In this document: positions 47,400 through 61,974 of the stretch, piece after piece
Layout of the letters: every line of letters begins with the position of its first letter
Numbering within the stretch: position 1 is the first letter of the stretch
IMG/VR virus record: IMGVR_UViG_3300012206_000007
Coordinates: 1 to 64,000 of that record
From: a virus
DNA: 64,000 nt
Strand: one strand, 5' to 3'
Translations under genes and position numbers: made by a program
The notes under the pieces: generated by a model
Databases searched by the model: none
Told to the model about the DNA's origin: nothing
Seen by the model: only the letters and a program-made list of their open reading frames with translations

Positions 47400-47400
47400 A

Positions 47401-47699: not shown

Positions 47700-47702
47700 G
47701 CG

Positions 47703-48869
47703 ATGACGAAGACGCCTCTCCTCCTCGTCGGCGATGGCCCCGCCGAACCCACCGGTCTGGGTCGCATCTTGCGCGACCTCGGCACGCTCCTCGTCCAGAG
47801 TGACCTCCCGATCGACCTCGCCTCGGTCGGCGGGCCCGTCCCGCCCGTCTGGCGCGCGTGGCCGCACTACCCACTCGACGAGCGCCTGCACCGCGGCGAG
47901 GACTGGGGCGCAAGCTACGTCGAGCAGCTCTGGGCCAGCCACTTCGGCAGCCGCCCCGGCATCCTCTGGGTCATCTGGGACCCGAGTCGCTTGGTCTACT
48001 ACCAGCACCTACAGGCCCCAGTCGTGAAGTGGGCCTATCCGGCGATTGATGCCGCCAACGGCGTGGGGACCATCGGCGGGCCAGCAGGTGAGGCACTCGC
48101 CTCGTGGGACCGCGTCATCGCCTATGGCCGGTGGGCGAGCCAGATCATCAAGACGGTGCGGACTGAAGCCGTGCCCTACCTGCCGCACGGCCTCCACAGT
48201 GAGACCTATGATCCGGCGGCGAACTATCTGTACCAGTCAGGGTGGGCGCACGACCAGCTCGGTCCCCACTGCAAAGGGAGCGACCTCGTCGTCGGCTGCG
48301 TCGCGACCAACCAGGCGCGCAAAGACCTCGGCCTCTACTTCCAGACGCTGGGCAAACTGAAGGACCGTGGCCTCCCCGTCTACGGCTGGCTCCACACCGA
48401 CACACTGGTCAAGGCGTGGGCGATTCCGCAACTGGTCGAGGACTGCGGCCTCGCGAAGCGGGTGACGGTCTCAACGCGCGCCTACACCGATGCCGAACTC
48501 GCCGCCTTGTATCGCGCGTGCGACGTGACGATTGCTCCTGGGCTCGGCGAAGGGTTCGCGTACCCCATCGCCGAATCGTTGGCGAGTGGCACGCTGGTCG
48601 TGCACGGCGACTACGCCGGCGGACGCGAACTCGTGCCGAAGCGCGAGTGGCGCTTCCCGGTGCGGGAGCTGCGACTGGAGGGCCTCTACGCCGTCCAGCG
48701 GCCGGTGTTCCGGGCCGAGGATGTCGCCAATGCGGTCGAGCGGGCGCTCGCGTGGCGCGACGCGGTGGGGCGGGAGACGGCGTCGTCGTATTGCACAGGC
48801 GCTGTCGCCCATCTCGACTGGCAGGCGCTGGCGGGGCGCTGGCTTGCCTGGGTGAAGGCGGGGCTGTGA
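47703..48869 (+). CDS. GT4-type glycosyltransferase
   Basis: 388 residues. The N-terminal Rossmann half starts LLLVGDGPAEPTGLGRILRD; the C-terminal half contains DLVVGCVATNQARKDLGLYF, VTVSTRAYTDAELAALYRAC, the donor-binding VTIAPGLGEGFAYPIAESLA (E-x7-E motif) and GTLVVHGDYAGG, the standard order of GT-B family 4 enzymes. It would transfer a sugar from an NDP-sugar; acceptor unknown. First of five glycosyltransferase-like genes in the rightward arm. Confidence 0.82.
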   Translation: MTKTPLLLVGDGPAEPTGLGRILRDLGTLLVQSDLPIDLASVGGPVPPVWRAWPHYPLDERLHRGEDWGASYVEQLWASHFGSRPGILWVIWDPSRLVYYQHLQAPVVKWAYPAIDAANGVGTIGGPAGEALASWDRVIAYGRWASQIIKTVRTEAVPYLPHGLHSETYDPAANYLYQSGWAHDQLGPHCKGSDLVVGCVATNQARKDLGLYFQTLGKLKDRGLPVYGWLHTDTLVKAWAIPQLVEDCGLAKRVTVSTRAYTDAELAALYRACDVTIAPGLGEGFAYPIAESLASGTLVVHGDYAGGRELVPKREWRFPVRELRLEGLYAVQRPVFRAEDVANAVERALAWRDAVGRETASSYCTGAVAHLDWQALAGRWLAWVKAGL

Positions 48870-49291
48870 TGGCGTTCCATGTGCCCGAAGCCTCACGTGT
48901 GACCGACCATCCGGTCCTAGGGTCCACAGCGGACGCGGGGAATAACGGCGCCTTCGTCCTCGCCTCCCCAGAGCCGGGATGGCGCCTCATGCTGATCTGC
49001 AGCGATAGCGGGGAGGTGCCTGGCCTCCCCGCGTGGGAGCACGTCAGCGTCCACGCTGTGCGCGGTGGCACAGGGTCTCGTCTGCAGCAGCGCACGCCCT
49101 CGTGGAAGGAGATGGCCTTCGTCAAAGACCTCTGCTGGGACGACGACGATGTCGTCATGCAGCTCCACCCACGGAAGGCCGATTACGTCAACGACCATCC
49201 GCACACGCTGCATTTATGGCGCCCGATCGACCGGGAGATTCCTACGCCGCCTACGATCTTCATCGGGGTGGGACGGAAGGCGCCGCTGTGA
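48869..49291 (+). CDS. Conserved phage protein (DUF7694-like)
   Basis: 140 residues from ATG 48869 (TGATG). WRLMLICSDSGEVPGLPAWE, HVSVHAVRG and SWKEMAFVKDLCWDDDDVVM, QLHPRKADYVNDHPHTLHLW form a highly recurrent phage protein of unknown function, often beside DNA-metabolism or modification genes. Confidence 0.72.
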   Translation: MAFHVPEASRVTDHPVLGSTADAGNNGAFVLASPEPGWRLMLICSDSGEVPGLPAWEHVSVHAVRGGTGSRLQQRTPSWKEMAFVKDLCWDDDDVVMQLHPRKADYVNDHPHTLHLWRPIDREIPTPPTIFIGVGRKAPL

Positions 49292-49560
49292 CGAACGAGA
49301 AGGCGCAGGCCCACACGACCAGCCGCATCTACGTCGTGCAGCCCGTCGAGGGTCCGTCCTTCCTCCTCGTCGAGGTCAGTATCGACTGCCCCGTGTGCGG
49401 CCAGCAGACGCTTCAGCTCGCGGGGCACCACCTGCGGCTGGTGCGCGATGTCATCCTCGAGGCGATGGACCGCCACCCCGAGCTGACATGCAGCGGGGAG
49501 TCGCAGATCGTGGAGCGATGGGAACTGAAGGGAGTCGGCAATGACCCGACCACGAGCTAA
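49288..49560 (+). CDS. Small protein with one CxxC pair
   Basis: 90 residues from GTG 49288 (GTGA overlap). TTSRIYVVQPVEGPSFLLVE, CPVCGQQTLQLAGHHLRLV, then a helical end. Function unknown. Confidence 0.58.
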   Translation: MTNEKAQAHTTSRIYVVQPVEGPSFLLVEVSIDCPVCGQQTLQLAGHHLRLVRDVILEAMDRHPELTCSGESQIVERWELKGVGNDPTTS

Positions 49561-49747
49561 GCCGGTGCAGCGATTGCCCGCGACGTGCGTGTGGACCGCC
49601 GATGACGAGGGCACCTGGGAGACGGCCTGCGGGGAACGCTTCATCTTCACGACCGGCGGGCCCATTGAGAATCGCGCGAGTTTTTGCCCCTATTGTGGTC
49701 GGGGGATTCGGACGGCTGCGGTCCTCCGGGAAGGCAGGCGGCTATGA
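49541..49747 (+). CDS. Conserved small zinc-binding phage protein
   Basis: 68 residues. The pattern W-x-x-D-D-x-G-x-W-E-T-x-C-G, then an aromatic FIFTTGGP and FCPYCGRGI at the end is one of the commonest small phage zinc proteins. It overlaps the previous gene by 20 bases. Confidence 0.7.
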   Translation: MTRPRAKPVQRLPATCVWTADDEGTWETACGERFIFTTGGPIENRASFCPYCGRGIRTAAVLREGRRL

Positions 49748-49980
49748 CTCGAGCACGAGTTGAGAGCGAAGCGGGAGAGCGGCTGATGCTCATGCTGACG
49801 CCTGCTGAAGCCAAGCACCTCATCGCGATCATCACGTTCGCGGAGGGGGCAGCCCTCGCCTATCCCACGGGCCTGTCGGAGGCGGTCACGTATCTCCTGC
49901 CGCTACGCCGCCGCCTGCTGGAAGCCTATCAGCCGCACTGGGCGCACGACCTCGCCAAGACGCTGGAGGAGGAAGGATGA
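49744..49980 (+). CDS. Small helical protein
   Basis: 78 residues from ATG 49744. LMLMLTPAEAKHLIAIITFA and YLLPLRRRLLEAYQPHWAHD; all helical, overlaps both neighbours by four bases. Family unknown. Confidence 0.58.
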   Translation: MTRARVESEAGERLMLMLTPAEAKHLIAIITFAEGAALAYPTGLSEAVTYLLPLRRRLLEAYQPHWAHDLAKTLEEEG

Positions 49981-50831
49981 CGCTCGCCATCGTGACGGCC
50001 TCGACCAATGTGGAGCGGGCGCGGCCCTGCCTCGAAAGCTGGGTCCGTTGCGCGACGACGCCACCGCCGATCTTCATCGTCCTCAACGGCTGCGCGAATG
50101 TGTCGAAGGTCGAAGTCGCGGGTGTGCAAGCGGCGTGGATTCACCGCGACGCCTACCTCGGCACCGTCCCCGCATTCCGGCGTGGTATCGATCTTGCGCT
50201 GGCGTCTGGCGACTTCGGGATTCTGGCAGCCCTGCATGACGACTTCGAGATCAAGGAGCCGGGCTGGGACGAGAAGGTCCTGCGCTACTTCGCCCGGAAT
50301 CCTGCCATGGGCCTCGCCGGCTTCGGCGGCGCCACAGGCCTCGGCGATCTCGACCTCTATGAGAAGCCCTATGACCCCATGAGCCTCGCGCGCGTGGGCT
50401 TCCGGAGCGACTTGGAAGACGCCGAGGCGCATGGGATGCGGAGCCTCCTCGCGGAGAAGGTCGCCGTGCTTGACGGCTTCAGTCAGTGCGGTCGGCGGGA
50501 GTTCTGGGAAGGCTATCCTGCGCCGAGCACACCGCACGATCAGCGATTCGAGCACTCGCCCTATGCACGTCCGTGGACTGTGCTGGAGGGCTTGGGGATC
50601 CACCATCATGCTTACGACGCCGGTCTTGGAGCACTCGCCGCACGTTACGGGTGGGAATGCTGGTATTTACCCCTGAGATGTCGCCACTACGGTGGCCAGA
50701 CAGCAGTCGGCGATGTCGGCTACCAAGCATGGGCGAAGACGCAAGATGTCAACGGCGACCAAGGCTTCTGGCAGCGCGCCCACGCTGCGATTTACGAGGC
50801 GTTCCGAGATCAACTTCCACTGCGTACCTGA
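49977..50831 (+). CDS. GT2-type glycosyltransferase
   Basis: 284 residues. LAIVTASTNVERARPCLESW and PIFIVLNGC form the start of a GT-A fold; FGILAALHDDFEIKEPGWDE carries the metal-binding DD (DxD-like) after strand 4; SQCGRREFWEGYPAPSTPHD resembles the acceptor loop, and CWYLPLRCRHYGGQTA the C-terminal beta end with a conserved H. Donor and acceptor unknown. Confidence 0.75.
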   Translation: MTLAIVTASTNVERARPCLESWVRCATTPPPIFIVLNGCANVSKVEVAGVQAAWIHRDAYLGTVPAFRRGIDLALASGDFGILAALHDDFEIKEPGWDEKVLRYFARNPAMGLAGFGGATGLGDLDLYEKPYDPMSLARVGFRSDLEDAEAHGMRSLLAEKVAVLDGFSQCGRREFWEGYPAPSTPHDQRFEHSPYARPWTVLEGLGIHHHAYDAGLGALAARYGWECWYLPLRCRHYGGQTAVGDVGYQAWAKTQDVNGDQGFWQRAHAAIYEAFRDQLPLRT

Positions 50832-50832
50832 G

Positions 50833-52326
50833 ATGAAGCACGCCTTCGGTGTCACGTCGGACTTGCAGCTCCCGTTTCCAACGGAGGCGGAGCCAGAGGT
50901 GTCGGATGGCGTGGGTCGGCGGGTGGCTGGTGCTCCTTGTGCTGCTGTGGGTGTGCGGACCGAAGCCCCTGCGCCCGAACTGGCACCGCCCGCCGAAGCC
51001 ACCACCGAGGAAGAAGCCCTCTGGCCCGATCCCGCGCCGCCCTACACCTACCTCGCAGGACCGGCTGGCAGTGGGAAGACCTTCGCCGTGAAAGCGTGGC
51101 AGGAGCGCGTCGGCGGCATCGAACTCTGCGCAACGACCGGTATTTCAGCGATCAACTGTGGCGGCACGACTATCCATGCACTGGCGGGGTACTTTGATAC
51201 GAAGAGCCTGCAGGAGAGCTACACCAACGGCTTCCTCACGGCGCGCCTCGGCAGGCTCTGGCGCGCCGGGATCCGCCGCCTCGTGCTCGACGAAGTCTCC
51301 ATGCTCGACGCCGACCAACTGACCTACATCGTGCGGGCGATTGAAGAAGTGAACGGACGCGGCTATGTGCTCGACGGCTGGACGCAGGAGGACGACGAAG
51401 AGCCGCCCGCGCTGGGCCTGACGCTCGTCGGCGATTTTGCCCAGCTCCCTCCCGTGAAAGCGCCCTTTGCGTTCGAGTCCCCCGAGTGGCTGCGCTTCGC
51501 CGAGCACACGAAGACCCTCATACGTATCCACCGCCAAGCCGACGCGCCCTTCATTGAAGCCCTCCGCCAGGCACGCCTCGGCAACGGCCGCGCGGTCGTC
51601 GACGCCTTCCGCAGCCAGCTCCACGCCGAGACTGACGACACCTTCGACGGCCCGACCCTCTTCGCGAAGAACGACGCCGTCGACCGCTACAACTGGATCC
51701 GCCTCGGGCGCGTGAAGGGGAAGGACCTGCTCTACGAGTCGGCGCGCGAGGGAAAGCAGCGCAGCGAGTGGGGCGACCCCAAGAAGCTGCCCGCCTCGTG
51801 GGGCATCCCGCTCCGCCTCCACCTCAAGATCGGCACGCTGGTGATGGTGCTCGCCAATAAGCGCGTCGAGGGCGAGCCACCGCAGCCCTTCGTCTATGTC
51901 AATGGTGACCTCGGCGAAGTCGTTGATGGTGATGCGACCGCGTGCTCCATCAAACTGCAGCGCACCGGCGCCGTCGTGAAGGTGCTCTATGTGAAGCGTA
52001 CCGTGCTGCAGCCCTGCGACGGCGCCCGTCGCAAGGAGCTCCGCGCCCTCGGGCAGGCAGATCGCATCGAAGGGAAGTTCGAGATCGTCGGCTGGGTGCA
52101 GTACATGCCGTTGCGCATTGCCTACGCCTCAACCGTCCATAAGTCGCAGGGCCTCTCGCTCGATCAGGTGCAGATCAATTGTCGCGACGCGTTCTTTTGT
52201 ACGCCGGCGATGTTGTATGTCGGCTTGTCGCGGTGCCGCACGCAGGAAGGACTTCGCTTAGTAGGTTCCGAAGCTGCTCTCTTGGAACGCTGCGTCGCTG
52301 ACCCGAGGCTCCGCGCATGGCTCTAG
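50833..52326 (+). CDS. Pif1/RecD-like SF1 helicase
   Basis: 497 residues from ATG 50833. Motif I AGPAGSGKTF (near 76), Ia TTGISAINCGGTTIHALAG, II RLVLDEVSMLDADQ (near 151), III LVGDFAQLPPVKAP (near 200), IV RIHRQ, V YASTVHKSQGLSLDQ (near 432), VI YVGLSRCRT. All SF1B helicase motifs are in order. The first 75 residues are Pro/Ala-rich and disordered. It would unwind DNA 5'-3' in replication or recombination. Confidence 0.9.
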   Translation: MKHAFGVTSDLQLPFPTEAEPEVSDGVGRRVAGAPCAAVGVRTEAPAPELAPPAEATTEEEALWPDPAPPYTYLAGPAGSGKTFAVKAWQERVGGIELCATTGISAINCGGTTIHALAGYFDTKSLQESYTNGFLTARLGRLWRAGIRRLVLDEVSMLDADQLTYIVRAIEEVNGRGYVLDGWTQEDDEEPPALGLTLVGDFAQLPPVKAPFAFESPEWLRFAEHTKTLIRIHRQADAPFIEALRQARLGNGRAVVDAFRSQLHAETDDTFDGPTLFAKNDAVDRYNWIRLGRVKGKDLLYESAREGKQRSEWGDPKKLPASWGIPLRLHLKIGTLVMVLANKRVEGEPPQPFVYVNGDLGEVVDGDATACSIKLQRTGAVVKVLYVKRTVLQPCDGARRKELRALGQADRIEGKFEIVGWVQYMPLRIAYASTVHKSQGLSLDQVQINCRDAFFCTPAMLYVGLSRCRTQEGLRLVGSEAALLERCVADPRLRAWL

Positions 52327-52565
52327 ATGAGGCCTGGCCTTGGATGACCATCTCAGATGACCCCGACTGGAACACGGTCGAGGCGATGATCTGCTACGGC
52401 GGGGGCTTTGTCGCGGCTCTTGGCCAGCTCTATCGCCGGGCCGACCCGCAGAACCAGGCGCGGCTCAAAGGCGCCTTCCCCGAATACTGGCGCAGCTACA
52501 CCGAGATCGCCCGGCAGCAGCAGGCCGCCCAAGCGGAAGAGACCAAGCGGAAGGGCACGCTGTGA
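52317..52565 (+). CDS. Hypothetical small protein
   Basis: 82 residues. WPWMTISDDPDWNTVEAMIC, YGGGFVAALGQLYRRADPQN and a helical Gln/Lys-rich end. Overlaps the helicase stop by ten bases. No family. Confidence 0.58.
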   Translation: MALDEAWPWMTISDDPDWNTVEAMICYGGGFVAALGQLYRRADPQNQARLKGAFPEYWRSYTEIARQQQAAQAEETKRKGTL

Positions 52566-53209
52566 CACCGATCCTGGTGCCTGGGACGGGCAGTTGGGCC
52601 GACGACAATCGCGTCGACTGGTATTGCCCCGGCTCGCCCTTCGTTGACTTCCTCGGCCGGCAGCATCTCGCCCCGGCCTTCGGGCGCCGCTACGACCTCG
52701 GCTACGACATCGGTCTGGCACCCTTCATCTGGTCGACGGACCTCGCGGGCGTGCCGATTCTCAGCCGCCTTGCGACGTGGGCGGCCGGTGGCGCGGCGCT
52801 CGCCTACTTTGTGGAAGCGACCGCGAACCTGCGGGGGAAGGACACCGCCGTCATCGCGCACAGCCACGGCTTGCAGCCCGTGCTCTACAGCTGCGCCGAG
52901 CAGAACCTCCGCGTGGCGCAGCTCATCTCGGTCGGCTCGCCCGTGCGCCACGACATGCTGGCCATTGCCAAGCGGGCCCGGCCACGCATCGGGTTCTGGC
53001 GGCACCTCCACTCGGACGCCTCCGACCGCTGGCAGTGGCTCGGCGAGCTGTTCGACAGTCACTTCAGCATCGTGCGCGCCCACCCCTTGGCCGATGAGAA
53101 CGTCGGCGTGCCCAAGGTGGGACATTCGGAGTTGCTGCGCGACGCAAGCCTGTTCCACCTGTGGGTGGATGAGGGGTGGTTGCAGCCCCTGCAACGGAGG
53201 CCCGCATGA
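52562..53209 (+). CDS. Alpha/beta-hydrolase, possible lipolytic lysis enzyme
   Basis: 215 residues from GTG 52562. ILVPGTGSWADDNRVDWYCP is the first strand and oxyanion region, VIAHSHGLQPVLYSC (near 97) holds the nucleophile elbow as H-S-H-G, and VGSPVRHDM plus later Asp/His (SDASDRW, PKVGHSELL) can complete a triad. It directly precedes a peptidoglycan hydrolase, like LysB esterases next to LysA in actinophages. The LysB comparison is by context, not a full motif match. Confidence 0.68.
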   Translation: MTPILVPGTGSWADDNRVDWYCPGSPFVDFLGRQHLAPAFGRRYDLGYDIGLAPFIWSTDLAGVPILSRLATWAAGGAALAYFVEATANLRGKDTAVIAHSHGLQPVLYSCAEQNLRVAQLISVGSPVRHDMLAIAKRARPRIGFWRHLHSDASDRWQWLGELFDSHFSIVRAHPLADENVGVPKVGHSELLRDASLFHLWVDEGWLQPLQRRPA

Positions 53210-53637
53210 GCCTCGCCCCACTCGATGTCATCGCGATCACCATTTGGGCTGAAGCGAGAAACCAGCCCGTCGAGGGTCGAATTGCCGTGGCAGCTGTCAT
53301 CCGTAACCGCGTGCGCGCCCACCATTGGGGTGCGACCTACGAGGCGGTGTGTCTCGCCCCCAAGCAGTTCTCCTGCTGGCAGGCGGTGGGGGGCACGGCG
53401 AATTACGAAGCGGTGCGGGCGCTCAAGGAACGCATTGAGCAGGGGCAGCGCCCCTCCGATGTTGTGCTGACCGAGTGCTACGCCATCGCGCAGGAGATTG
53501 TCTCGGGCCGACTCCAAGACAATACGAAAGGCGCGACGCATTACGTGGTGACGACGGTGCCCCCGCCGCTCTGGGCGGTGGACCACACGCCGGTGTGCGT
53601 CATCGGGGACCACGCGTTCTATGCGGGAGTGGCGTGA
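53206..53637 (+). CDS. SleB-type cell-wall hydrolase (endolysin)
   Basis: 143 residues from ATG 53206. ITIWAEARNQPVEGRIAVAA (catalytic Glu near residue 16), VIRNRVRAHHWGATYEAVC, PKQFSCWQAVGG and GATHYVVTTVPPPLW are the standard blocks of Hydrolase_2/SleB enzymes, here without signal peptide or binding domain. It probably degrades peptidoglycan for lysis. No adjacent holin was identified. Confidence 0.85.
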   Translation: MSLAPLDVIAITIWAEARNQPVEGRIAVAAVIRNRVRAHHWGATYEAVCLAPKQFSCWQAVGGTANYEAVRALKERIEQGQRPSDVVLTECYAIAQEIVSGRLQDNTKGATHYVVTTVPPPLWAVDHTPVCVIGDHAFYAGVA

Positions 53638-53951
53638 TGCGGCAGCCCATGATTCCTGAACGACTTGGCGATCTGCCGACACCGTCTGGTGTCTCGCGCC
53701 GGGCCTTCCTGCGCGCCCTCGTCGCGGCCCCTGCACTGGCCTCCTCGACGCTGGCCGTCGACTGGGAGCGCCTCCTGTGGACGCCCACGCCGATTATCCT
53801 GGTCCCGGCGATGCCCCAGCCTGCGTGGCTGGATGCGCTCGCCGAGGGGCAGTTCTCCCATATCGTGACCCGTCTGGCGCTGGCGGTAGGGGCGGAGGAC
53901 CCCAGCCGTCCCTTCACGGCGACGTGGATTCCGGTGACGGGCCATGAGTAG
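53637..53951 (+). CDS. Small protein with twin-arginine signal
   Basis: 104 residues from ATG 53637, overlapping the endolysin stop. SRRAFLRALVAAPALASSTL is a Tat-type signal (S-R-R-x-F-L followed by a hydrophobic stretch). The mature part, WERLLWTPTPIILVPAMPQP, is short. A Tat-targeted phage protein beside an endolysin may assist lysis or entry exclusion; this is inference. Confidence 0.65.
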   Translation: MRQPMIPERLGDLPTPSGVSRRAFLRALVAAPALASSTLAVDWERLLWTPTPIILVPAMPQPAWLDALAEGQFSHIVTRLALAVGAEDPSRPFTATWIPVTGHE

Positions 53952-54804
53952 GCTGCTGACGACCTTCCCGGGGCGCTTCGGGGACATCGGATGGGCCCTA
54001 CCGACCATTCGCGCCATTGCGGAGGCGAACGAGCCTGTCGACCTCGTCATTGGCGCCGAGTTCGCCTCGATTGTGCCGCTCCTCCAGCAGCAGCCCTACC
54101 TGCGCCACGTCTGGAGCGACCCTGCGTGGCACCTCGTGCCGCCAGATGAGTGGCGGGCGCCCTACGCCGGTAAGGAAGGTGTCGCCCCACCCGACCTGCC
54201 GGACGTGCCCTACGACCAGATCATCCACCTTGGGCACCGGAAGTGGCCCGATGAATCACTGCCCAAGCGGATCTACACGCAGCTCGGTGAGCAGTATCCC
54301 GGCCTGAAGAAGGCGCCGCTCGATCTCGACCGGCCGTGGATCGCCGTCATCCCCAAGCTCTGGACAGGGCCGTCGCTCGATGTGGCTGTCTGCTGGTCTG
54401 AAGAATGGATCGAGTTGAAGATGGGCACCGTCCTCGCGGTCGCAGAAGCCCTCCGGAGGAAACGCTTTACCCTCGTCGGCCCCGACCGTATGGGACGCCG
54501 CGCGGAGTGGGAGCATAGCTGGCTCCGTCTCGATAACACGCTGGCCTGGCCGAGCGACTGGATTCTCGCCACGTATGCGCTCTGTGAAGCGCGCGTGGTG
54601 CTGACCTGCTGCTCCGGCCTCTGGGTCCTCGCCAACGCCCTCAACAAGCCGGTCGTGCTCTACGAGCCGAGCGCCGCACGGCAGAACCCCGTCTTCTGGC
54701 TGGAACACCCGAGGAATCGGAAGGTGCTCGGTGGCGACGGCCTCCCGACCATCGATGCACGGGCGACAGCAGCAGCGATTGAGGCGGTGCTGAATGGCCA
54801 CTGA
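53944..54804 (+). CDS. GT9-like glycosyltransferase (heptosyltransferase type)
   Basis: 286 residues. FPGRFGDIGWALPTIRAIAE (nucleotide-fold start with the FGDxxxxxPTIR signature of GT9), VIGAEFASIVPLL, a C-terminal Rossmann half with VLTCCSGLWVLANALNKPVV (donor/acceptor region resembling S/TGxxHLAxALGxP) and VLYEPS. GT9 enzymes add heptose or similar sugars to LPS. Overlaps both neighbours. Confidence 0.78.
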   Translation: MSRLLTTFPGRFGDIGWALPTIRAIAEANEPVDLVIGAEFASIVPLLQQQPYLRHVWSDPAWHLVPPDEWRAPYAGKEGVAPPDLPDVPYDQIIHLGHRKWPDESLPKRIYTQLGEQYPGLKKAPLDLDRPWIAVIPKLWTGPSLDVAVCWSEEWIELKMGTVLAVAEALRRKRFTLVGPDRMGRRAEWEHSWLRLDNTLAWPSDWILATYALCEARVVLTCCSGLWVLANALNKPVVLYEPSAARQNPVFWLEHPRNRKVLGGDGLPTIDARATAAAIEAVLNGH

Positions 54805-55126: not shown

Positions 55127-55349
55127 CGTGCGCTCAGGCGACCTCATCGTGGCGGAGATCAGTAAGAACTGGATCGACTCGACTGAAGTCGTCCCGACGC
55201 CGCCACTCTGCCAACTCTTCGAGCAGGTCATCGCGCGCAATCGCTCGCGCGGCTATCACCTGCACTCGTTCCAACTCCATCGCCTCATGGTGTCGTTGAA
55301 CCAGATGAACGAGACGATCATCGCAGTCTTCGAGTGGGACGGGCGATGA
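55116..55349 (+). CDS. Conserved small phage protein
   Basis: 77 residues from ATG 55116. LCQLFEQVIARNRSRGYHLH, SFQLHRLMVSLNQMNETIIA form a pattern frequent in phages of many hosts, (F/L)EQVIxxNRxxGYxLHSFQL...LNETIIAVFE. Function unknown. The start is embedded in GGAGGCGGTGCTCGATGGCC, identical to that of 55365. Confidence 0.72.
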   Translation: MAADVRSGDLIVAEISKNWIDSTEVVPTPPLCQLFEQVIARNRSRGYHLHSFQLHRLMVSLNQMNETIIAVFEWDGR

Positions 55350-55364
55350 AGGAGGCGGTGCTCG

Positions 55365-56144
55365 ATGGCCTTTGATCAACGGCGCATGTACGAGGCAATG
55401 TCGAACGCCTATGCGCCAGCACCCACGACGCCACCTGCTGAGGAAGTGGTCGAAACTCCCTTCGGCAAGTTTCTGGTCGACTCGCGCGACGTGATCGACG
55501 CCACCCTCGAGGCGGGCACCCTCTGGGACGGTCCCGGCTTCCTCCAGCCGCTCGCCGTCGAGTATGGCCGTCTCGGCGAGCGCGGCGTGACCATCCTCGA
55601 TGTCGGTGCACACCATGGCGCCTTCAGCGTCTGGCTCGCGCGGCAGGGCGCGTGGCGTGTGGTCGCGGTCGAGCCCGTGCCCCAGACGATGCAGCGGCTG
55701 AAGGCCAACCTGGACCTCAATCGCGAGGCGACGGCGTCCTGCGTCATCCCGATCGAGGTGGCGGCCTACGATGCCCGCCGCCTGCTCTGGGTGCCCCCTG
55801 TGGAGGCAGGCAACACCGGCGGCGTCGCGCTGCGGCCGGAGGGCGAGGTCGGTGCGCCCACCGTGGCGGCACGTCCGCTCGACGAGTACCGCTGGCTCTG
55901 CCCGCAGGTGAGCCTGATCAAAGTCGACGCCCAAGGCTGCGATGGGCGGGCGTTGCGCGGGGCGCAGGCCCTCATCGAGGTGCACCACCCGGCGATTGTC
56001 TTCGAGTGGGAGGCCGATCTCGCTGCCGCGCACGGCGACAGTCTCACGGGTCCCGCTGGCATCTGGGAGTGGCTCGTCGCGCGCGGCTATCATGTGCACG
56101 CGTGGCCGAGTCAGCCGAACAACTACGTCGCGCGCTGGCGGTGA
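55365..56144 (+). CDS. FkbM-type methyltransferase
   Basis: 259 residues. After ETPFGKFLVDSRDVIDATLE it has the SAM site VTILDVGAHHGAFSVWLARQ, WRVVAVEPVPQTMQRLKANL, and the conserved VSLIKVDAQGCDGRALRGAQ with IVFEWEAD near the end. These are the hallmark blocks of FkbM enzymes that O-methylate sugars or polyketide-linked groups. In a cluster with glycosyltransferases it most likely modifies a glycan. Confidence 0.82.
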   Translation: MAFDQRRMYEAMSNAYAPAPTTPPAEEVVETPFGKFLVDSRDVIDATLEAGTLWDGPGFLQPLAVEYGRLGERGVTILDVGAHHGAFSVWLARQGAWRVVAVEPVPQTMQRLKANLDLNREATASCVIPIEVAAYDARRLLWVPPVEAGNTGGVALRPEGEVGAPTVAARPLDEYRWLCPQVSLIKVDAQGCDGRALRGAQALIEVHHPAIVFEWEADLAAAHGDSLTGPAGIWEWLVARGYHVHAWPSQPNNYVARWR

Positions 56145-56151
56145 GGACGCG

Positions 56152-56637
56152 ATGCCTGTGGTCTGGCAGCAGGTGACGAAGTTCGATGGCCGGGCGTGCG
56201 CGCTGGCCGACCGGCACTACAGCCGCCGGAAGATTGGCGCACCGCAGTTCATGCCGCCTGGCGAGACGGTCATTCTGCTCACACCGGCTGCCGACGCGGT
56301 CTTCGGCTGGTGGCGTCCGCATCCGGCGTCGGGATTGAGGGCCATGAACGGGCGGGATGGCTGGACGTGCTCGATCTTCCGCAACGAAGGTGGGCAGCGG
56401 TCCTCTGCCCTGATCCTCGCCGCTGAGGAGAGGCTGGCACGACTTGGCGTCACCTGCGGTGTGGACGGCTTACTGACCTACATCTGGCGGGCGAAGGTGC
56501 GGAGCGTGAATCCCGGCTATTGCTTTAAGTGCGCAGGCTATCGACGGATCGGCGTGAGCGCCGATGGGCGGAAAGACTTGCTCCAGAAGGCGTGGGCATC
56601 TGTCGGACAGGCGGGCGGCGTGCATGGCCGCTGCTGA
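56152..56637 (+). CDS. GNAT-like conserved phage protein
   Basis: 161 residues from ATG 56152. RACALADRHYSRRKIGAPQF, MPPGETVILLTPAADAVFGW, WRPHPASGLRAMNGRDGWTC, SIFRNEGGQRSSALILAAEE, then VNPGYCFKCAGYRRIGVSAD. The central IFRNEG...SALILAAE resembles the acetyl-CoA region of phage GNAT-like proteins common in actinophages. Substrate unknown. Confidence 0.68.
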   Translation: MPVVWQQVTKFDGRACALADRHYSRRKIGAPQFMPPGETVILLTPAADAVFGWWRPHPASGLRAMNGRDGWTCSIFRNEGGQRSSALILAAEERLARLGVTCGVDGLLTYIWRAKVRSVNPGYCFKCAGYRRIGVSADGRKDLLQKAWASVGQAGGVHGRC

Positions 56638-57094
56638 TGTCGCAGGAGGCTCTACGAAACTTGTGAACGCTGGCCTTGGCGATGTGTCCGACCGCCTCAC
56701 GATTCTGGCGCTGAAGATCCTCGTCGGCCAGGAGCAGGGCAGGGACGTGACCCACTTCAGCAACGAGCACGCCGCTCTGCTGACGCAGATCCGCAGCCGC
56801 ACGCTGAACGCGAAGTGGTTCGAGGCGGTGCTGAGCCTCGCCGCCGTGAACGGCCTGCTGTGGCACGCCGAGGACGACCTGAAAGCCCTCCGCCTCGAAT
56901 GGATGGTGCAGCAGACACCGTCTGCGGCGGAGGTGACCATCACCGCCGTGGGCGACGGCGTCAAGCGGCGCGTCGCGGACCTCGTGTTACCGCTCGCCTT
57001 CCGGATCCAAGGATTGAACGAGCAGCGCGCCGAACTCGTCGCGCAGATCAACCGCGAGGCCGGCGACGGGGCTGGTGCTGAGAAGCTCTCATGA
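56624..57094 (+). CDS. DUF6165-like protein
   Basis: 156 residues from ATG 56624. LGDVSDRLTILALKILVGQE, a helical body (NAKWFEAVLSLAAVNGLLWH) and ADLVLPLAFRIQGLNEQRAE. The start resembles DUF6165/DUF4254 proteins, which often lie in glycan clusters. Assignment is tentative. Confidence 0.55.
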   Translation: MAAADVAGGSTKLVNAGLGDVSDRLTILALKILVGQEQGRDVTHFSNEHAALLTQIRSRTLNAKWFEAVLSLAAVNGLLWHAEDDLKALRLEWMVQQTPSAAEVTITAVGDGVKRRVADLVLPLAFRIQGLNEQRAELVAQINREAGDGAGAEKLS

Positions 57095-57324
57095 CGTCAC
57101 GGACATCACTGGATGCGTACTGGCAGGACTACTACGCCAACAAGCAGGGCGTCGCGGACCAGCAGTTGCTGAAACAACTCGAGTCCGCCTTTGAGGCGGT
57201 CTTCTATGCGGGGGCCACCGCCGCCCTGCTGGGAATCGGTGCTGTGGCGCCAACCTGCCGAGAGAACCGCCGACGCGAGTTGCTGGACGAGGTCGATATG
57301 AAGCTGATGGCGCAGGGTGGCTGA
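57091..57324 (+). CDS. Conserved small helical phage protein
   Basis: 77 residues. LLKQLESAFEAVFYAGATAA is the familiar 'AFxAGAxA' helix of small phage proteins, with a helical LLDEVDMKLMAQ end. Function unknown; overlaps the previous gene by four bases. Confidence 0.65.
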   Translation: MTSRTSLDAYWQDYYANKQGVADQQLLKQLESAFEAVFYAGATAALLGIGAVAPTCRENRRRELLDEVDMKLMAQGG

Positions 57325-57336
57325 CGGGCGGCACCG

Positions 57337-58308
57337 ATGAACGTCGCCCTTGTTTCGACGTGGGATATCCCATGCGGGATTGCTGAAATGGCCGCCTACC
57401 TGAAGGCGGCGGTTGAAGCGGCTGACCCGACGATCACGCTCGTGCCGATCACGAATCTTCATCCGGCGGCGATTCTCGCGCCCGAAGCGATCGGTGCGCC
57501 GCAAGGCTGGGACGTGATTCTGCTCAACTATCAGGCCGCCCTCCTCAGTCAATGGCACCCAGAGGACATCCGAGCCGTGCAAGTGCACGGGATGAAAGTG
57601 CTAGTCGTCTGGCATGACAGTGGCGTCCCGAACTCCGATCAGGCCAAAGGCATCTGCGCGGCGGCAGACAGTTTCGTCGTGCACGAGCCGTACGACGACC
57701 TCGACGGCAACGGCCGCTACTGGCGCATGGGCGTGCCGGACTGGCAACTCGCGCAGCCTGTCGACATCCACCCACGGAGTTGGTGTGGCCCTCGGCCGAT
57801 CCTCGGCTCGATCGGCTTCCCCTATCCGTGGAAATGCCTCGACGAGCTCGCGCGCGTGACAGCAAAGGCTGGGTGGGCGCTCCTGCTCATCGCGCCGACG
57901 GCGACGCCCACACAGGTGGCGACGTGGACAAGCCTAAATCCCCACCTCTGCGTATATAACCGCTTCCTCGATCGGGAGGAAGCGTTGCAGCTCTTAGGCG
58001 GTTGTGACGCGACTGCCTTCTGCTTTTCATGTGCAAATACGGGACAGTCAGGATCCATCCTGCAGGGCATCGCGGCGCGCAAGCCCGTCATCGCCTTCAG
58101 TCATTGCCGCCAAATGAAATCGCTCTGGGAGGACCCGCTCGGCCGCGAGGTCATCTACTGGACGGACAGCTTCGACGGCGTCGCGGAGCACCTCCGTACG
58201 CTGCCGATTCAGCGCGTCGACCCTGGCACGGTGGCGTTGGCGACGCAGGATTCGTGGGAACAGCTCGGACGGAAGTACGCTGCCCTCCTGCACGAGTTGG
58301 TGCGATGA
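57337..58308 (+). CDS. GT4-like glycosyltransferase
   Basis: 323 residues. NVALVSTWDIPCGIAEMAAY gives the GT-B start with a glycine-rich C-G-I-A acceptor loop; VVWHDSGVPNSDQ and DSFVVHEPYDDL lie at the domain boundary; the donor half has ILGSIGFPYPWKCLDELARV, CDATAFCFSCANTGQSGSIL and QGIAARKPVIAFSH (equivalent of the E-x7-E region, with GSILQGIAAxKPV). Likely transfers a sugar; substrate unknown. Confidence 0.72.
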   Translation: MNVALVSTWDIPCGIAEMAAYLKAAVEAADPTITLVPITNLHPAAILAPEAIGAPQGWDVILLNYQAALLSQWHPEDIRAVQVHGMKVLVVWHDSGVPNSDQAKGICAAADSFVVHEPYDDLDGNGRYWRMGVPDWQLAQPVDIHPRSWCGPRPILGSIGFPYPWKCLDELARVTAKAGWALLLIAPTATPTQVATWTSLNPHLCVYNRFLDREEALQLLGGCDATAFCFSCANTGQSGSILQGIAARKPVIAFSHCRQMKSLWEDPLGREVIYWTDSFDGVAEHLRTLPIQRVDPGTVALATQDSWEQLGRKYAALLHELVR

Positions 58309-59060
58309 CGGCCGCCTACCCCTTGAGCAAGTGCGTAGATCCGGTGCCAGACTATGCCGAGCTCACCCCTGAACTTGCCACCGTCGACCGCTTCTTTACC
58401 GCCGCGAGCGAGCAGCATAGCGGGCGTCGGTGGGAGTACGCACTCGCGTTACGCGCCCTCACGGCCTGGACGTCCACTCGCGCCCCGCACGAGCATCTGC
58501 ACCTCATCGATGTCGGCGGTGCGGGCTCGCCCTTCGCGCTGATGGCCGACCACCAGCTCCGCCAAGTCGCCGTCGAGCACCACATCAGGCACCTGCAGGT
58601 GACGATCATCGACCCCGCATGGAGCGGGCTGCTGCTCGGCCCGGCCGCAGAGGCTGGCGCGACCATCCAGCCGGTGCCGCTCGACCTCGCCACCTACCTC
58701 ACGGGCGATGCGCCCGCGACGCTCGCGCACATCTGTACCGTTCTCTCTGTCGTCGAGCATGTCCCTGACCTCGAGCGTTTCCTCTTCCACCTCAGTTGCC
58801 TCGTGCTGCCGGGCGGGCTGCTCTTCCTGACGATGGACTGCTGCGAGGCCGACGCACCCGACCCTGGGGGCTGGCCCACCGACCGCTATCACTTCCACTG
58901 GATGCGCCAGCGGATTTTCGACCGGCCGCAGTGGCAGCGGCTGCGCGACGTGTTCGCGCGGTACCAGTTCCGCCTGTCTGGTGAGGCGGACTGGGCATGG
59001 AAAGGCGCGCACGTCGCGGACTACAGCTTTTGTTCGCTTGCTCTGGTGAAGCGGGTATGA
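58305..59060 (+). CDS. Class I SAM-dependent methyltransferase
   Basis: 251 residues from ATG 58305. HLHLIDVGGAGSPFALMADH is the SAM-binding loop, VTIIDPAWSGLLLG holds the acidic ribose contact, and ICTVLSVVEHVPDLERFLFH is motif III with E-H as in glycan and small-molecule methyltransferases. The C-terminal half is aromatic-rich. Coupled to the next methyltransferase by four bases, so the two probably act in one pathway. Confidence 0.75.
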   Translation: MTAAYPLSKCVDPVPDYAELTPELATVDRFFTAASEQHSGRRWEYALALRALTAWTSTRAPHEHLHLIDVGGAGSPFALMADHQLRQVAVEHHIRHLQVTIIDPAWSGLLLGPAAEAGATIQPVPLDLATYLTGDAPATLAHICTVLSVVEHVPDLERFLFHLSCLVLPGGLLFLTMDCCEADAPDPGGWPTDRYHFHWMRQRIFDRPQWQRLRDVFARYQFRLSGEADWAWKGAHVADYSFCSLALVKRV

Positions 59061-60337
59061 CCTTCACGGTAACGCTCCACGACCGCTGCCGCCTCTGCCA
59101 AGGCGTGCTCGACCCGGTGCTCGACCTCGGACACCTCGCGCTCCCGACCTTCCCGCGCCCAGAGGACGATCCGGCGCCACGCGTGCCGCTCGACCTCACG
59201 ACCTGCCGCACCTGCGGCCTCGTGCAGCTGCGCCACACCGTCTCGCCGGACGCCTTGTTCCGTACGTACTGGTACCGATCGTCCACCAATGAGGCGATGC
59301 AGGCGGAGCTGACGGACATCGTGCGCGCGGCGCTGGCGGCGGTCGACGTGGAGGCGAACGATCCCGTCATCGACATCGGCGCGAACGATGGCTTCCTCCT
59401 CAGTCAGTACCCGCTGTGCCTCCCCCATCGGAGGCCGGAGCGCATCGCCTTCGAGCCCGCGCACAACCTCAAGGACGCGTGCCGCCGCCATGCCGAGCAG
59501 CACTGGGCCGAATACTTCCCCCCCACAGGCGAGACCCGCGCGACGCATGTCCTCCCGGTGGCGTGGCGCCGGAAGGTCAAAGTGCTGACATCCATCGCCT
59601 GCTTCTACGATGTCGAGGACCCGACCGCGTTCGTGCAGGCGGTGGATGTCCTGCTGGCCGAGGACGGCGTGTGGATCGTGCAGCTCCAGGACCTCGCCCA
59701 GACCGTTGAGGCGACCGCCTTCGATTGCGTCTGTGCGGAACATCTGACTTACTGGTCACTGGCCAGCTTTGAATTCCTGCTCGCTCGCACAGACGTGGAC
59801 TTGCACATCGTCCACGCCGAGCGGCGCCCCATCAACGGCGGCAGCCTCCGCCTCCTGATCCGGCGGCGGCACCACACGGTCGACGAGACCGTCCACACGC
59901 TCGCGGAGCAGGAAGCTGCCTCGATCACATGGCAGGCGCTGGAGCGCTTCGCGTGGTCGGCGGTGGTGGCCAGGACGCAGATCGAAGCGGCGGTCCACGC
60001 GGCGACGCGTGCGGGCTTGACGGTCGACTTGTATGGGCCAAGCACGAAAGCAGAGACGCTCACACAGTGGGTTGGCCTTGGGCCACCGCGCATCCGGCAG
60101 GCGTGGGAGCGGCACCCAGACAAGATCGGGCGGCTGACGGCAATGGGCATCCCGATTGTCGACGAGGAGACGGGGCGTGCGGACCCCCCGGACCTTCTTC
60201 TCGTCGGCATTTGGCAATTCAGAGAGGGCATCCTGCGGCGTGAGGCGGACTACTTGGCCGGTGGCGGTCGGCTACTTTTTCCGCTGCCAGTCGTCGACGT
60301 GGTGAGCTATGGCCTTGTCCTCCCCACCGTCATGTAG
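59057..60337 (+). CDS. Zinc-binding sugar C-methyltransferase
   Basis: 426 residues from ATG 59057. An N-terminal zinc module (CRLCQGVLDPVLDLGHLALP, TCRTCGLVQLRH) is followed by FRTYWYRSSTNEAMQAEL, the SAM-binding VIDIGANDGFLL, FDCVCAEHLTYWSLASFEFL, and a C-terminal nucleotide-like domain with VDLYGPSTKAETLTQW. This is the three-part architecture of TylCIII-like NDP-sugar C-3 methyltransferases. It implies an unusual branched deoxysugar. A GTAC repeat core (CCGTACGTACTGGTACCGATC) overlaps codons near 59262-59280. Confidence 0.82.
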   Translation: MTFTVTLHDRCRLCQGVLDPVLDLGHLALPTFPRPEDDPAPRVPLDLTTCRTCGLVQLRHTVSPDALFRTYWYRSSTNEAMQAELTDIVRAALAAVDVEANDPVIDIGANDGFLLSQYPLCLPHRRPERIAFEPAHNLKDACRRHAEQHWAEYFPPTGETRATHVLPVAWRRKVKVLTSIACFYDVEDPTAFVQAVDVLLAEDGVWIVQLQDLAQTVEATAFDCVCAEHLTYWSLASFEFLLARTDVDLHIVHAERRPINGGSLRLLIRRRHHTVDETVHTLAEQEAASITWQALERFAWSAVVARTQIEAAVHAATRAGLTVDLYGPSTKAETLTQWVGLGPPRIRQAWERHPDKIGRLTAMGIPIVDEETGRADPPDLLLVGIWQFREGILRREADYLAGGGRLLFPLPVVDVVSYGLVLPTVM

Positions 60338-60527
60338 GCACTGCGGCAACGCCGACCCAACGATGCTCATCGGGCTGACGGGCGGAGGACTCTACTGTGA
60401 AGTGTGCAGCCGGGTGACGGAGGCGAGGACGACCGATGGCAATGCGGAACGCCGTGATTCTGTGGCTGACGCTGACCGGCGTGGTCCTGCTGGCCTTCGC
60501 CACCAGCGCCGACCGACGCGTGAGTGA
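60309..60527 (+). CDS. Small zinc-binding protein
   Basis: 72 residues. CRHCGNADPTMLIGLTGGG and YCEVCSRVTEAR form a zinc ribbon. The C-terminal half overlaps the membrane-protein gene by 92 bases and looks random, so the functional part may be only the first 45 residues. Confidence 0.5.
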   Translation: MALSSPPSCRHCGNADPTMLIGLTGGGLYCEVCSRVTEARTTDGNAERRDSVADADRRGPAGLRHQRRPTRE

Positions 60528-60609
60528 GGCGGTGGCGAGTGGTGGCTGCTGGCTGCTCGCGTGGGTCTACGCGCAACTGACAAGAGGCGGGCGAGGAGGA
60601 CAGCGATGA
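60436..60609 (+). CDS. Small membrane protein
   Basis: 57 residues, not long enough for usual gene lists. One transmembrane helix (AVILWLTLTGVVLLAFATSA) and a second hydrophobic region (GGCWLLAWVYAQL) precede a basic GGRGGQR tail. The stop overlaps the next ATG (ATGA). Candidate membrane-active protein, possibly a holin, given the lysis genes upstream. Confidence 0.55.
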   Translation: MAMRNAVILWLTLTGVVLLAFATSADRRVSEAVASGGCWLLAWVYAQLTRGGRGGQR

Positions 60610-60878
60610 AGCGGTATGCGGACCTCCCCGAGGCCGACCGGATGACCGAGGCGCATGTGCGCCAGTGGGAGGTGCTCACCCGGAAGAGCGGCGGCTGTGG
60701 CGGCGAAGACTGGATTCAGGAGACCCTCCAGCGGATGGCTGAGGCACGGTGTGAGGCGGCCGTGCCGTGGTTTGGCGAGATCGATGGCCACGTCTACTAC
60801 CGACGCTGCCAACGGCCCATCCTGAAGACGCAAGCCTACTGCCGCATCCATGCGCCGCTGGAAGGAGACACCGCATGA
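60606..60878 (+). CDS. Small Cys/Trp protein
   Basis: 90 residues from ATG 60606. KRYADLPEADRMTEAHVRQW, GGCGGEDWIQETLQRMAEAR, a central WFGEIDGHVYYRRCQRPI and YCRIHAP at the end. Cys/His residues may bind zinc. Coupled on both sides. Function unknown. Confidence 0.6.
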   Translation: MKRYADLPEADRMTEAHVRQWEVLTRKSGGCGGEDWIQETLQRMAEARCEAAVPWFGEIDGHVYYRRCQRPILKTQAYCRIHAPLEGDTA

Positions 60879-61135
60879 TCGACTACGTCGAAGTCGACGG
60901 TCCCGACGGCCTCGTTCGCATCAAGCCCGAATGGATGATTGCGCTCGGCGCCCCGCTGGACTGGTTCCGCCCAGGCGACGACCTCACGGAAGACCAGAAA
61001 GTGCGCGTGCGCGCCGTCTACCTGCACGGGGGCGCCCAGATCATGGTGCTCGATACGCCGGAGAACCTGCGGCGGTTGCTCCAGCGCGTGTGGCCTGATG
61101 CGGCGGCGTGGGCCAAGCGGGAGAGCGAGCGATGA
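60875..61135 (+). CDS. Hypothetical small protein
   Basis: 86 residues from ATG 60875. YVEVDGPDGLVRIKPEWMIA, DLTEDQKVRVRAVYLHGGAQ, IMVLDTPENLRRLLQRVWPD: a small alpha/beta domain of the kind seen as regulators or inhibitors. Coupled to both neighbours. Confidence 0.58.
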   Translation: MIDYVEVDGPDGLVRIKPEWMIALGAPLDWFRPGDDLTEDQKVRVRAVYLHGGAQIMVLDTPENLRRLLQRVWPDAAAWAKRESER

Positions 61136-61974
61136 CGCCGACGTGGATCATCCTGCCGGTGATGACGGGGATGGAGATGACCCGCGCCGCCATCAGCGAT
61201 GCCCTTGCGCAGTCGGTGCCGACGCGCCTGCTGCTTGTGAACCAGGGCTGCCCCGATGACATGCGGGATGAGTTCGAGCGCCTCGCGGAGGAGCAGCCCG
61301 AGCGCGTGTTCGTCCTGCATCACATGCCGCCGTTGCCGAGCCTCTCGGCGACGTGGAACCGGTGTCTCGATCTGGCATGGGAAACGGGCGGTGAGGCGGC
61401 GCTGGTCGTGAATTTCGACGTGCGCCTTGCGCCTGACACGGTCGAAATGCTCGCCGCCGCCCGTCGCGCCTGTGATGCGCTGTTCGTCTCAGCCGTTGGC
61501 GTGACGGGAGCCGACTTCAGGCAGACGAGCTATGAGGAGCGTGAAGTTGGTGATGTCCTTGCGAACAAGGGTGGTCCCGACTTCTCCTGCTTTCTGATCA
61601 GTAAGGCGTGCCACGACCGCTTCCGCTTCGATGAAGGCTTCATCCCGGCGTTTGCCGAAGACCTCGATATGCACCGCCGCCTGATGCTCGCTGGCGAAGG
61701 CCAGCGTATCTTCAGCGTCAATCTGCCGTTCCTGCACCATGCCAGTCAGACGCTGAAACTCCTCCCGCCGAAGGAGGCTGACCGCATCCGGCGCGAGATT
61801 GACACCATCAGCCGCGCGCACTACCGCGCCAAGTGGGGCGGCGACGTGAACGCCGAGACGTTCCTCGTGCCCTTTGGCCACGCGTCAGATTGTGTACGGA
61901 CGGATGGCTCCGCGGCCACGCCCTACTTATTCGACCAGGAGCGCCAGCAATGGGCAAGCGCCTTGAGGACCTGA
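61132..61974 (+). CDS. GT2-type glycosyltransferase
   Basis: 280 residues from ATG 61132. TWIILPVMTGMEMTRAAISD, LLLVNQGCPDDMRDEF, SLSATWNRCLDLAWETGGEA and ALVVNFDVRLAPDTVEML give the GT-A fold with an N-F-D metal-site variant of DxD; the acceptor side has FSCFLISKACHDRFRFDEGF and FAEDLDMHRRLMLAGE (E-D-x-D-x-H-R, close to the ED/QxxRW-type motif). Substrate unknown. Confidence 0.77.
   Translation: MTPTWIILPVMTGMEMTRAAISDALAQSVPTRLLLVNQGCPDDMRDEFERLAEEQPERVFVLHHMPPLPSLSATWNRCLDLAWETGGEAALVVNFDVRLAPDTVEMLAAARRACDALFVSAVGVTGADFRQTSYEEREVGDVLANKGGPDFSCFLISKACHDRFRFDEGFIPAFAEDLDMHRRLMLAGEGQRIFSVNLPFLHHASQTLKLLPPKEADRIRREIDTISRAHYRAKWGGDVNAETFLVPFGHASDCVRTDGSAATPYLFDQERQQWASALRT

Follow-up and report, generated by a model that had tools for sequence, protein, structure and literature searches.

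What do the glycosyltransferases of a phage decorate: its DNA, the surface of its host or its own virion? The target is often guessed, and an uncultivated virus (IMG/VR record IMGVR_UViG_3300012206_000007), of which we analysed a stretch of 64,000 of 68,723 bases (hereafter, the window), poses the question through a locus at 47703–61974. An earlier note on this DNA, made from the sequence alone, had recognized there five glycosyltransferase-like and three methyltransferase genes and read them as a complete glycan-building set, unusual in a phage. Here, comparative genomics points to one candidate acceptor on the capsid surface: because relatives without the set carry a different version of a predicted capsid-coating protein, we suggest, from genes and their variation, that the cassette enzymes sugar-coat the virus particle.

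A conserved set of glycan genes

The comparison (in which G000 is the window, and other G and L numbers are relatives' records and loci) drew on a panel of 40 relative records, 41 with the window, from scans with alignments of a neighbouring polymerase, the sugar C-methyltransferase of the cassette (CMT) and its first glycosyltransferase (GT4a). The panel comprised 31 of the 33 polymerase loci (L016 and L022, short pieces, were left out), six contigs from 18 GT4a loci and three from the best 80 C-methyltransferase loci; scans with capsid and GT2a alignments added two further records (G041 and G042). Where the earlier note had proposed looking for co-occurrence in relatives, seven genes (GT4a, GT2a, GT9, a DUF4254-like gene, GT4b, CMT and GT2b) were found together and in one order in eight divergent records (G000, G008, G012, G013, G014, G020, G026 and G042), the most distant being G042, whose capsid protein is 51.6% identical to its best panel match. 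At L003, the order is that of the window (GT4a, GT2a, Dda, GT9, DUF4254-like, GT4b, CMT, GT2b and UDG-polymerase) at 30–46% protein identity, with a sugar epimerase/dehydratase gene between GT4b and CMT and no recognized relative of the class I methyltransferase. Other records of this type are broken by contig ends or short of one gene (G017 is without the DUF4254-like gene and G024 without GT2b). Because gene order is kept in divergent relatives, chance assembly of the cassette is excluded. The locus is a real multi-enzyme glycan cassette with a sugar C-methyltransferase, as had been proposed, and a conserved module of a phage lineage rather than a one-off.

All of the cassette genes lie on the + strand, at the positions first given for them: 47703 (GT4a), 49977 (GT2a), 53944 (GT9) and 57337 (GT4b) are the first start codons of their open reading frames (ORFs), the methyltransferases begin at 55365, 58305 and 59057, and the GT2b start at 61132, which the gene caller also chose, is an ATG inside an ORF that opens at 61108. 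The proposed identities fared unevenly, with CMT, FkbM and GT4a backed by profiles over cut-off and GT9 by its predicted fold, and with GT2a, GT2b, GT4b and the class I methyltransferase each weak singly. GT4a (47703–48869; 19 of 41 records) matched Pfam PF13692 (Glyco_trans_1_4; 36.6 bits, cut-off 27), PF00534 (33.9 bits, over cut-off) and PHROG 2170 (glycosyltransferase; E 2.5e-19), and its profile matched GT4-type structures, among them 3oy2 of B736L (E 3.2e-5 over 58 residues), which we take to be a chlorovirus protein. GT9 (53944–54804; 14 of 41) gave zero sequence matches in Pfam, PHROGs and NCBIfam and nothing useful among solved structures; its predicted model (pLDDT 80.9) matched GT9 heptosyltransferases (Foldseek E 2.3e-8 to 1psw; Z 20.2 to 3tov at 3.1 Å over 256 residues; Z 19.5–20.0 to WaaC), and by this model the product has a GT9-type GT-B fold, like that of WaaC, WaaF and TibC. 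Profile support for GT2a (49977–50831; 15 of 41) is weak and its conservation among relatives good (Glyco_tranf_2_5, 18.4 bits and, for its L003 relative, 21.9 bits; cut-off 27), and GT4b (57337–58308, start possibly 57388; 14 of 41) is weakly GT4-like (PF13692, 14.5 bits, cut-off 27); sequence searches with either gave nothing among solved structures in the PDB. The GT2-like GT2b (61132–61974; 11 of 41) had no Pfam match, and was assigned by PHROG 29879 ('galactosyl transferase'; E 6.6e-11) and by an alignment profile against GalT1 (5hea; E 0.012). These phages, then, encode glycosyltransferases, identified by profile for GT4a, by fold for GT9 and more weakly for the others; that sub-threshold matches underlie several of the assignments weighs against the virion-glycosylation reading favoured below. 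The remaining core member encodes a small DUF4254-like protein (56663–57094; 12 of 41; PF14063, 21.5 bits and, in the L003 relative, 26.9 bits; cut-off 27).

Among the methyltransferases, CMT (59057–60337), a zinc-binding NDP-sugar C-methyltransferase of the TcaB9/TylCIII type, is the most clearly assigned: PF08421 (49.6 bits) and PF08484 (92 bits) are both over cut-off, and matches to TcaB9 and mycarose 3-C-methyltransferases reach E 1e-34 to 1e-44 (TcaB9, E 1.7e-38 over 9–414). A point against the reading favoured below is that, of the Tyr-x-Glu-His motif that we take to be catalytic in such enzymes, the window keeps the Glu-His pair but has a Cys in place of the preceding tyrosine. The FkbM-family gene (55365–56144; PF05050, 50.1 bits, cut-off 22.7; TIGR01444, 78.7 bits) is optional among relatives; PADLOC gave only a weak match, of this gene to 'mad2', which was put down to the common methyltransferase domain. 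MT1, the class I methyltransferase (58305–59060; Methyltransf_23, 17.7 bits, cut-off 27), has a shorter paralogue that persists in cassette-negative phages.

Alternative gene content at the locus

Between the 45091 gene and the polymerase, three content types were observed; the set in the window represents type A. In type B (G018, G023, G027 and G036), GT4a, shared with type A, is accompanied by genes for a hexapeptide transferase (27.2 bits, cut-off 27) and for an aminotransferase of the DegT/DnrJ/EryC1 type (240 bits). A further gene there reached mannosyltransferase and GT2 profiles only below threshold, and another, with no hit in Pfam, is GT4-like by eye (one member of each was scanned in Pfam); examples lie at L211:12357–15603 and L256:7153–9077. 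This content suggests an alternative, amino-sugar-like set at the same locus. G025 and G037 have GT4a without the type B partner genes. Type C is without the window's glycosyltransferases; a short paralogue of MT1 remains, and six of the nine records have an integrase. Eleven records that span the locus (G001, G002, G003, G004, G006, G009, G011, G016, G019, G021 and G022) were cassette-negative, by which we mean that tblastn at E 1e-4 detected no glycosyltransferase of the window; in G001 and G009, the contig ends lie on the stretch from MT1 or nearby genes to the polymerase. Pfam found a glycosyltransferase in none of ten unassigned genes scanned from the negative loci of G004, G006, G009, G019, G021 and G022.

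Several relatives carry extra genes. Those near GT4b in G015 (L202:8717–9466), G014 (L160:9661–10599) and G020 (L173:7432–8340) are possibly further glycan-modifying enzymes; the G015 and G014 genes had no Pfam match, and the G014 and G020 genes look alike by eye. G014 also has a second sugar C-methyltransferase (L158:4262–5470), on the opposite strand and far from the cassette, and the cassette-negative G009 has an N6/N4 DNA methylase (L186:4264–5325; 83.5 bits) between Dda and MT1.

A capsid-region gene that varies with the cassette

On a core tree built from eight proteins, cassette-bearing phages fall on either side of the midpoint root, and the C types form a nested group with two positive phages, G024 and G008, inside it: G001 branches before G024 (support 1.000), and G008 falls within the remaining C types (support for its exact place, 0.321). 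The second of these looks like one phage in three pieces, G008, G033 and L285, which are IMG/VR records from two metagenomes that overlap end to end at 99.94–100% (G033 and G008 over 21,035 identical bases; L285 and G033 at 99.94% over 1,801 bases; L285 also shares 33 identical bases with the start of G008). Cassette and core trees agree broadly, with patristic distances correlated at 0.94 and six of ten splits common to both, and the simplest account, as judged from these trees, would be an old cassette, mostly vertically inherited and lost several times. The cassette tree joins G008 with G024, and because some of the conflicts involve core splits with support of 0.99–1.0, exchange also occurred, a complication for that account.

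Against this background, a gene at 16940–17494 (− strand; 184 amino acids), next to that of the major capsid protein (17508–18695, − strand; 58–86% identity to the window protein in most relatives), showed the largest cassette effect outside the cassette. Thirty gene families present in at least 14 of 25 records were tested against core distance with 1,000 permutations, which do not keep relatedness apart from the distance term and in which G005 and G007 were counted as negative though their contigs do not span the locus. The effect was 0.99 standard deviations (sd) for the 16940 gene (0 of 1,000 permutations), compared with 1.10 sd for MT1, within the cassette (4 of 1,000), 0.38 sd for the 15508 gene (0 of 1,000) and 0.16 sd for the capsid (7 of 1,000), several families having small effects. 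Columns that fully discriminate 17 positive phages (G018, G023 and G025, with type B or GT4a only, among them) from 8 negative ones numbered 22 of 180 in the 16940 protein and 2 of 5,079 in twelve other conserved genes, in counts that leave out G005, G007 and G010 (locus not spanned), G002 (near-identical to G003), G022 (told apart), G021 (no capsid gene found) and G041 (the same capsid, portal, terminase and decoration proteins as G009). Before the second nested positive was added, and with G005 and G007 already left out, the counts were 24 of 178 and 12 of 5,067; an odd-one-out control gave 24 columns for the true outlier, G024, and 0 or 1 with each of the eight negatives as outlier.

The nested positives behave alike. 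In G024, whose core is that of the C clade, the 16940 gene is the only core structural gene that leans towards type A by over 0.05 of self score (0.57 versus 0.45); the 19636 gene is level (0.77 versus 0.76), and the 24547 gene and a small gene family, og76, follow the 16940 gene. The positive-type allele is likewise found on L285, the piece of the second nested positive that carries the capsid gene, which is off G008's own contig. In the 16940 tree, all eight C-type negatives fall in one clade (stem 0.677, support 1.000) that excludes both nested positives.

Could cassette and allele both track a third factor, such as host lineage, or coincide by recombination, without any functional link? 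The independent events are few (three cassette changes by parsimony on 25 tips, and a fourth by reading once G008 is added, on 26 tips), the differences of the negative allele are spread over most of the protein rather than confined to one site, and G022, a separate cassette-negative lineage, stands outside the pattern, being without the C allele, having Asn-Ala for the Asp-Ser pair and lying on the longest branch of the 16940 tree. Moreover, because the C-type negatives form one clade on a long stem, the negative allele arose once and must have been exchanged. All of these points weigh against a functional coupling. Conversely, the coupled loci of G024 lie far apart (13.7–21.4 kb and 47.4 kb) with negative-like genes between them, the 16940 gene alone among its core structural genes breaks rank by the margin used, and the second nested positive agrees. 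We consider coincidence unlikely, and the coupling of the 16940 allele with the cassette well supported across these alignments, as a correlation that rests on few events and that G022 does not fit.

A predicted decoration protein as candidate acceptor

The model of the 16940 product (pLDDT 83.9) matches chains of the phage capsid entries FCWL1, HFTV1, T1, Pa193 and XM1 at Z 9.6–10.6. With E217 and TW1, which also matched, Z ranges over 8.5–10.6 across all seven capsid entries and over 8.5–9.7 for those titled decorating or stabilizing, where a best Z of 7–8 is usual for models without a clear match. From this model, the product is predicted to be a capsid decoration protein, and this assignment has against it that the structural matches reach a Foldseek E of 1e-3 at best.

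The alleles differ strongly just after the strand at residues 52–60, where the window reads D61-S-T-M-T-V-A-P and C types D-P-A-A-A-A-A-P or similar. Ser62 is present in 16 of 16 positives and in one of eight C-type negatives, and residues 62–66 contain on average 2.75 Ser/Thr (range 1–4) in the 16 positives, as compared with 1, 2, 0, 1, 0, 0, 0 and 0 in the eight C-type negatives; elsewhere in the protein the Ser/Thr fraction is alike (0.159 versus 0.147, with 11 counted as negatives). This Ser/Thr-rich stretch is perhaps the attachment site. Three observations count against that idea: G001, although cassette-negative, keeps Ser62; G022 has two Ser/Thr in residues 62–66 despite having no cassette; and the homologue in the cultured phage Tunturi_2, whose annotation reads head scaffolding protein, shows Ser-Ser-Thr at the aligned positions without a cassette. 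Because Tunturi_2 has no annotated glycosyltransferase and gave none with cassette queries, the stretch may be a family consensus instead of a site, and because of all three cases we leave attachment there as a possibility only.

The acceptor might instead be a different structural component of the virion (the major capsid protein, tail or fibre), with the decoration allele shifting because its contacts change. Known mycobacteriophage glycans are on capsid and tail tube subunits (PMC12619734), and the major capsid protein does have a cassette effect, if a small one. A small accessory structural-region protein (24547–24885, − strand; nine of 41 records, mostly with the cassette) is present in both nested positives, as well as in G025 (GT4a only) and in the C-type G019 (two copies). 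Three further accessory genes of the structural region, at 11441, 11812 and 12818, are found largely in that part of the A clade to which the window belongs and at first sight appeared linked to the cassette; their distribution, however, tracks phylogeny, and they are absent from G024 and from the G008 part of the second nested positive. As targets of the cassette they were therefore discarded. Since discriminating columns numbered zero in the major capsid, portal, 1332-amino-acid tail and head–tail genes, another virion acceptor seems rather improbable.

A possible cytoplasmic route to a virion glycan

The reading that we favour, to which we give about an even chance, is that the cassette glycosylates the capsid decoration protein in the cytoplasm. 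In this soluble pathway, phage glycosyltransferases would pass host-made nucleotide sugars one by one to a capsid-surface acceptor, most likely the decoration protein of 16940–17494, and CMT, with FkbM and MT1, would methylate the sugars, giving a methylated and possibly branched glycan. The substrate of NDP-sugar 3-C-methyltransferases is a keto sugar nucleotide, which for CMT would be supplied by the host. The benefit might be an altered particle surface, for example for protection or adhesion; enzymatic activity, transfer order, acceptor, attachment site and benefit are all parts of the scheme that we infer, whereas the genes with their order, the coming and going of the cassette as one block, the decoration fold in the model and the coupling of alleles are what the analysis shows. 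The PF00483 nucleotidyltransferase was found in none of 13 records and the PF01370 epimerase family was over cut-off in one of 20 searched, because of which the donor sugars would come from the host, and the 'complete set' of the earlier note is an overstatement. Likewise, the PF02397 bacterial sugar transferase and the GtrA flippase, a mark of serotype-converting gtr clusters, were found in none of the 13 records (for GtrA, control genomes matched in 8 of 14, 7 over cut-off). Because none of these three families was found there and the 23 genes of the region encode at most one hydrophobic segment each, we favour sequential transfer in the cytoplasm, the compartment in which the capsid protein is also made.

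The same results bear on modification of a host surface polysaccharide, for superinfection exclusion or receptor change, with the capsid allele co-varying through host adaptation. Bacterial polysaccharide clusters often contain GT9, FkbM and C-methyltransferase genes, and the GT9 fold is that of WaaC and WaaF; integrases over cut-off in 13 of the 41 records also indicate, by sequence, that some phages of the panel are probably temperate, all of which would suit such a role. Yet neither GtrA nor PF02397 appeared in the 13 records, hydrophobic segments are few, the strongest covariate is a capsid gene whereas the 1332-amino-acid tail gene has no discriminating column, and no integrase matched in the window's own record, leaving this explanation unlikely.

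Genes beside the cassette raise the further possibility of DNA base hypermodification, with the glycan built on a modified base. The cassette lies among replication genes, next to a C5-cytosine DNA methylase (45776–46993), whose overlapping frame runs into what we take, from its motif, to be an HNH/endonuclease VII-like stretch, and the locus is anchored by a UDG domain (PF03167, 63 bits) fused to a DNA polymerase-like protein (62424–64000, + strand, continuing to record position 65516; an ORF of ~1030 amino acids, 1030 in L002). The polymerase part we name presumptively, from sequence features and SPO1-type fusions. However, of 40 relatives only G027 and G036, both outside type A, had a match to the C5 methylase, and the UDG-polymerase, for which 33 relatives were found, occurs in cassette-positive and cassette-negative phages alike. 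A thymidylate-synthase-fold enzyme was found in none of 12 cassette-positive records (the control matched 9 of 14 genomes), and TET/JBP matched in none of 13 records in a search in which the control genomes were silent, and in 0 of 1 in another whose control was below cut-off. We regard base hypermodification as very unlikely. Thus, of the three targets proposed at the outset, a virion protein is best supported, through co-variation with a decoration-fold protein; a DNA base is less likely, and a host surface polysaccharide keeps some probability, but GtrA, PF02397 and PF00483 were found in none of 13 records.

Returning to glycosylation of the decoration protein, a broader and more tentative extension is that the locus is an exchangeable virion glycan locus: the product of type A would be an oligosaccharide that is methylated and C-branched, that of type B a glycan with amino sugars, and type C would make none. 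The decoration protein would have evolved corresponding alleles, one carrying the glycan and one bare, that switch together with the cassette. This would amount to a phage version of capsule serotypes, combined with a protein glycosylation pathway free of lipid carriers. Paired natural variants with and without the cassette are available and, if the favoured reading is true, virion glycosylation would become testable beyond mycobacteriophages, with eight or nine recombinant genes and a single acceptor.

Genome context

Structural genes occupy the − strand in the first ~33 kb of the window, and the early/replication region is mainly on the + strand; ARAGORN found no tRNA in the window, and a phage collection gave no near-identical DNA match to bases 47000–63900. 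Within the cassette region, outside the glycan set, lie a Dda-like helicase (50953–52326, + strand; PHROG 325, E 2.5e-52), a SleB-type hydrolase (53206) and, between the FkbM and DUF4254-like genes, a gene at 56152–56637 (PHROG 24928, E 6e-35) matched in one of 40 relatives (G040, 31%). By portal and decoration protein, the nearest cultured phages are Tunturi_1 and Tunturi_2 of Tunturiibacter, and the capsid gene of the window has a match in the protein annotated as major head protein in Tunturi_2 (E ~2e-24). Both are podoviruses, with Tunturiibacter (Acidobacteriota) hosts (PMC11924767); for the window's phage, an Acidobacteriota host would be no more than a guess from such distant relatives. 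A capsid profile search of genome contigs, as a prophage route to the host, gave zero matches. The sole portal-profile match (40%) was on L369, an 8.3-kb contig filed under a Patescibacteria metagenome-assembled genome; as this is possibly a mis-binned phage piece, it was not taken as host evidence.

Comparison with known systems

Chloroviruses use virus-encoded glycosyltransferases and methyltransferases to build an unusual glycan on their capsid protein and are the closest functional analogue, with B736L among the matches to the GT4a profile; they are viruses of eukaryotic algae with other enzymes and another acceptor, and we liken the two in function, not as homologous systems. At the level of single enzymes, CMT resembles TcaB9/TylCIII 3-C-methyltransferases in both Pfam domains, nearly full-length alignment and the Glu-His pair, but differs in being phage-borne, in its Cys for the TcaB9 tyrosine and in having no PF01370 epimerase/dehydratase gene in the window's record. 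GT9 shares the fold of the WaaC/WaaF and TibC heptosyltransferases over nearly the whole chain (Z 16–20), although identity is only 12–17%. The Tunturi phages have distant homologues of the portal (27%), terminase, major head and decoration proteins, the last again adjoining the head gene, but no annotated glycosyltransferase, and Tunturi_2 gave no match to glycosyltransferase, C-methyltransferase or DUF4254-like queries at E 0.01.

Mycobacteriophages offer the nearest precedent among phages. Glycans on their capsid and tail tube subunits are described, citing Freeman et al. 2023, in PMC12619734, and the Maravista announcement infers virion glycosylation from two glycosyltransferases (PMC11256854). 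Phage-encoded glycosyltransferases and virion proteins as acceptors (here, a proposed one) are common to both. The present system, with its predicted glycan, differs in its roughly five glycosyltransferase-like genes plus a sugar C-methyltransferase, its conserved gene order, the alternative sets at its locus and the decoration protein as proposed acceptor. In literature on phage and virion glycosylation that covers subscription journals little, we found no description of such a cassette coupled to a decoration protein. Phage virion glycosylation itself is already known; what looks new is a large conserved set of genes, the occurrence of different types at a single locus and the link with a decoration-fold protein.

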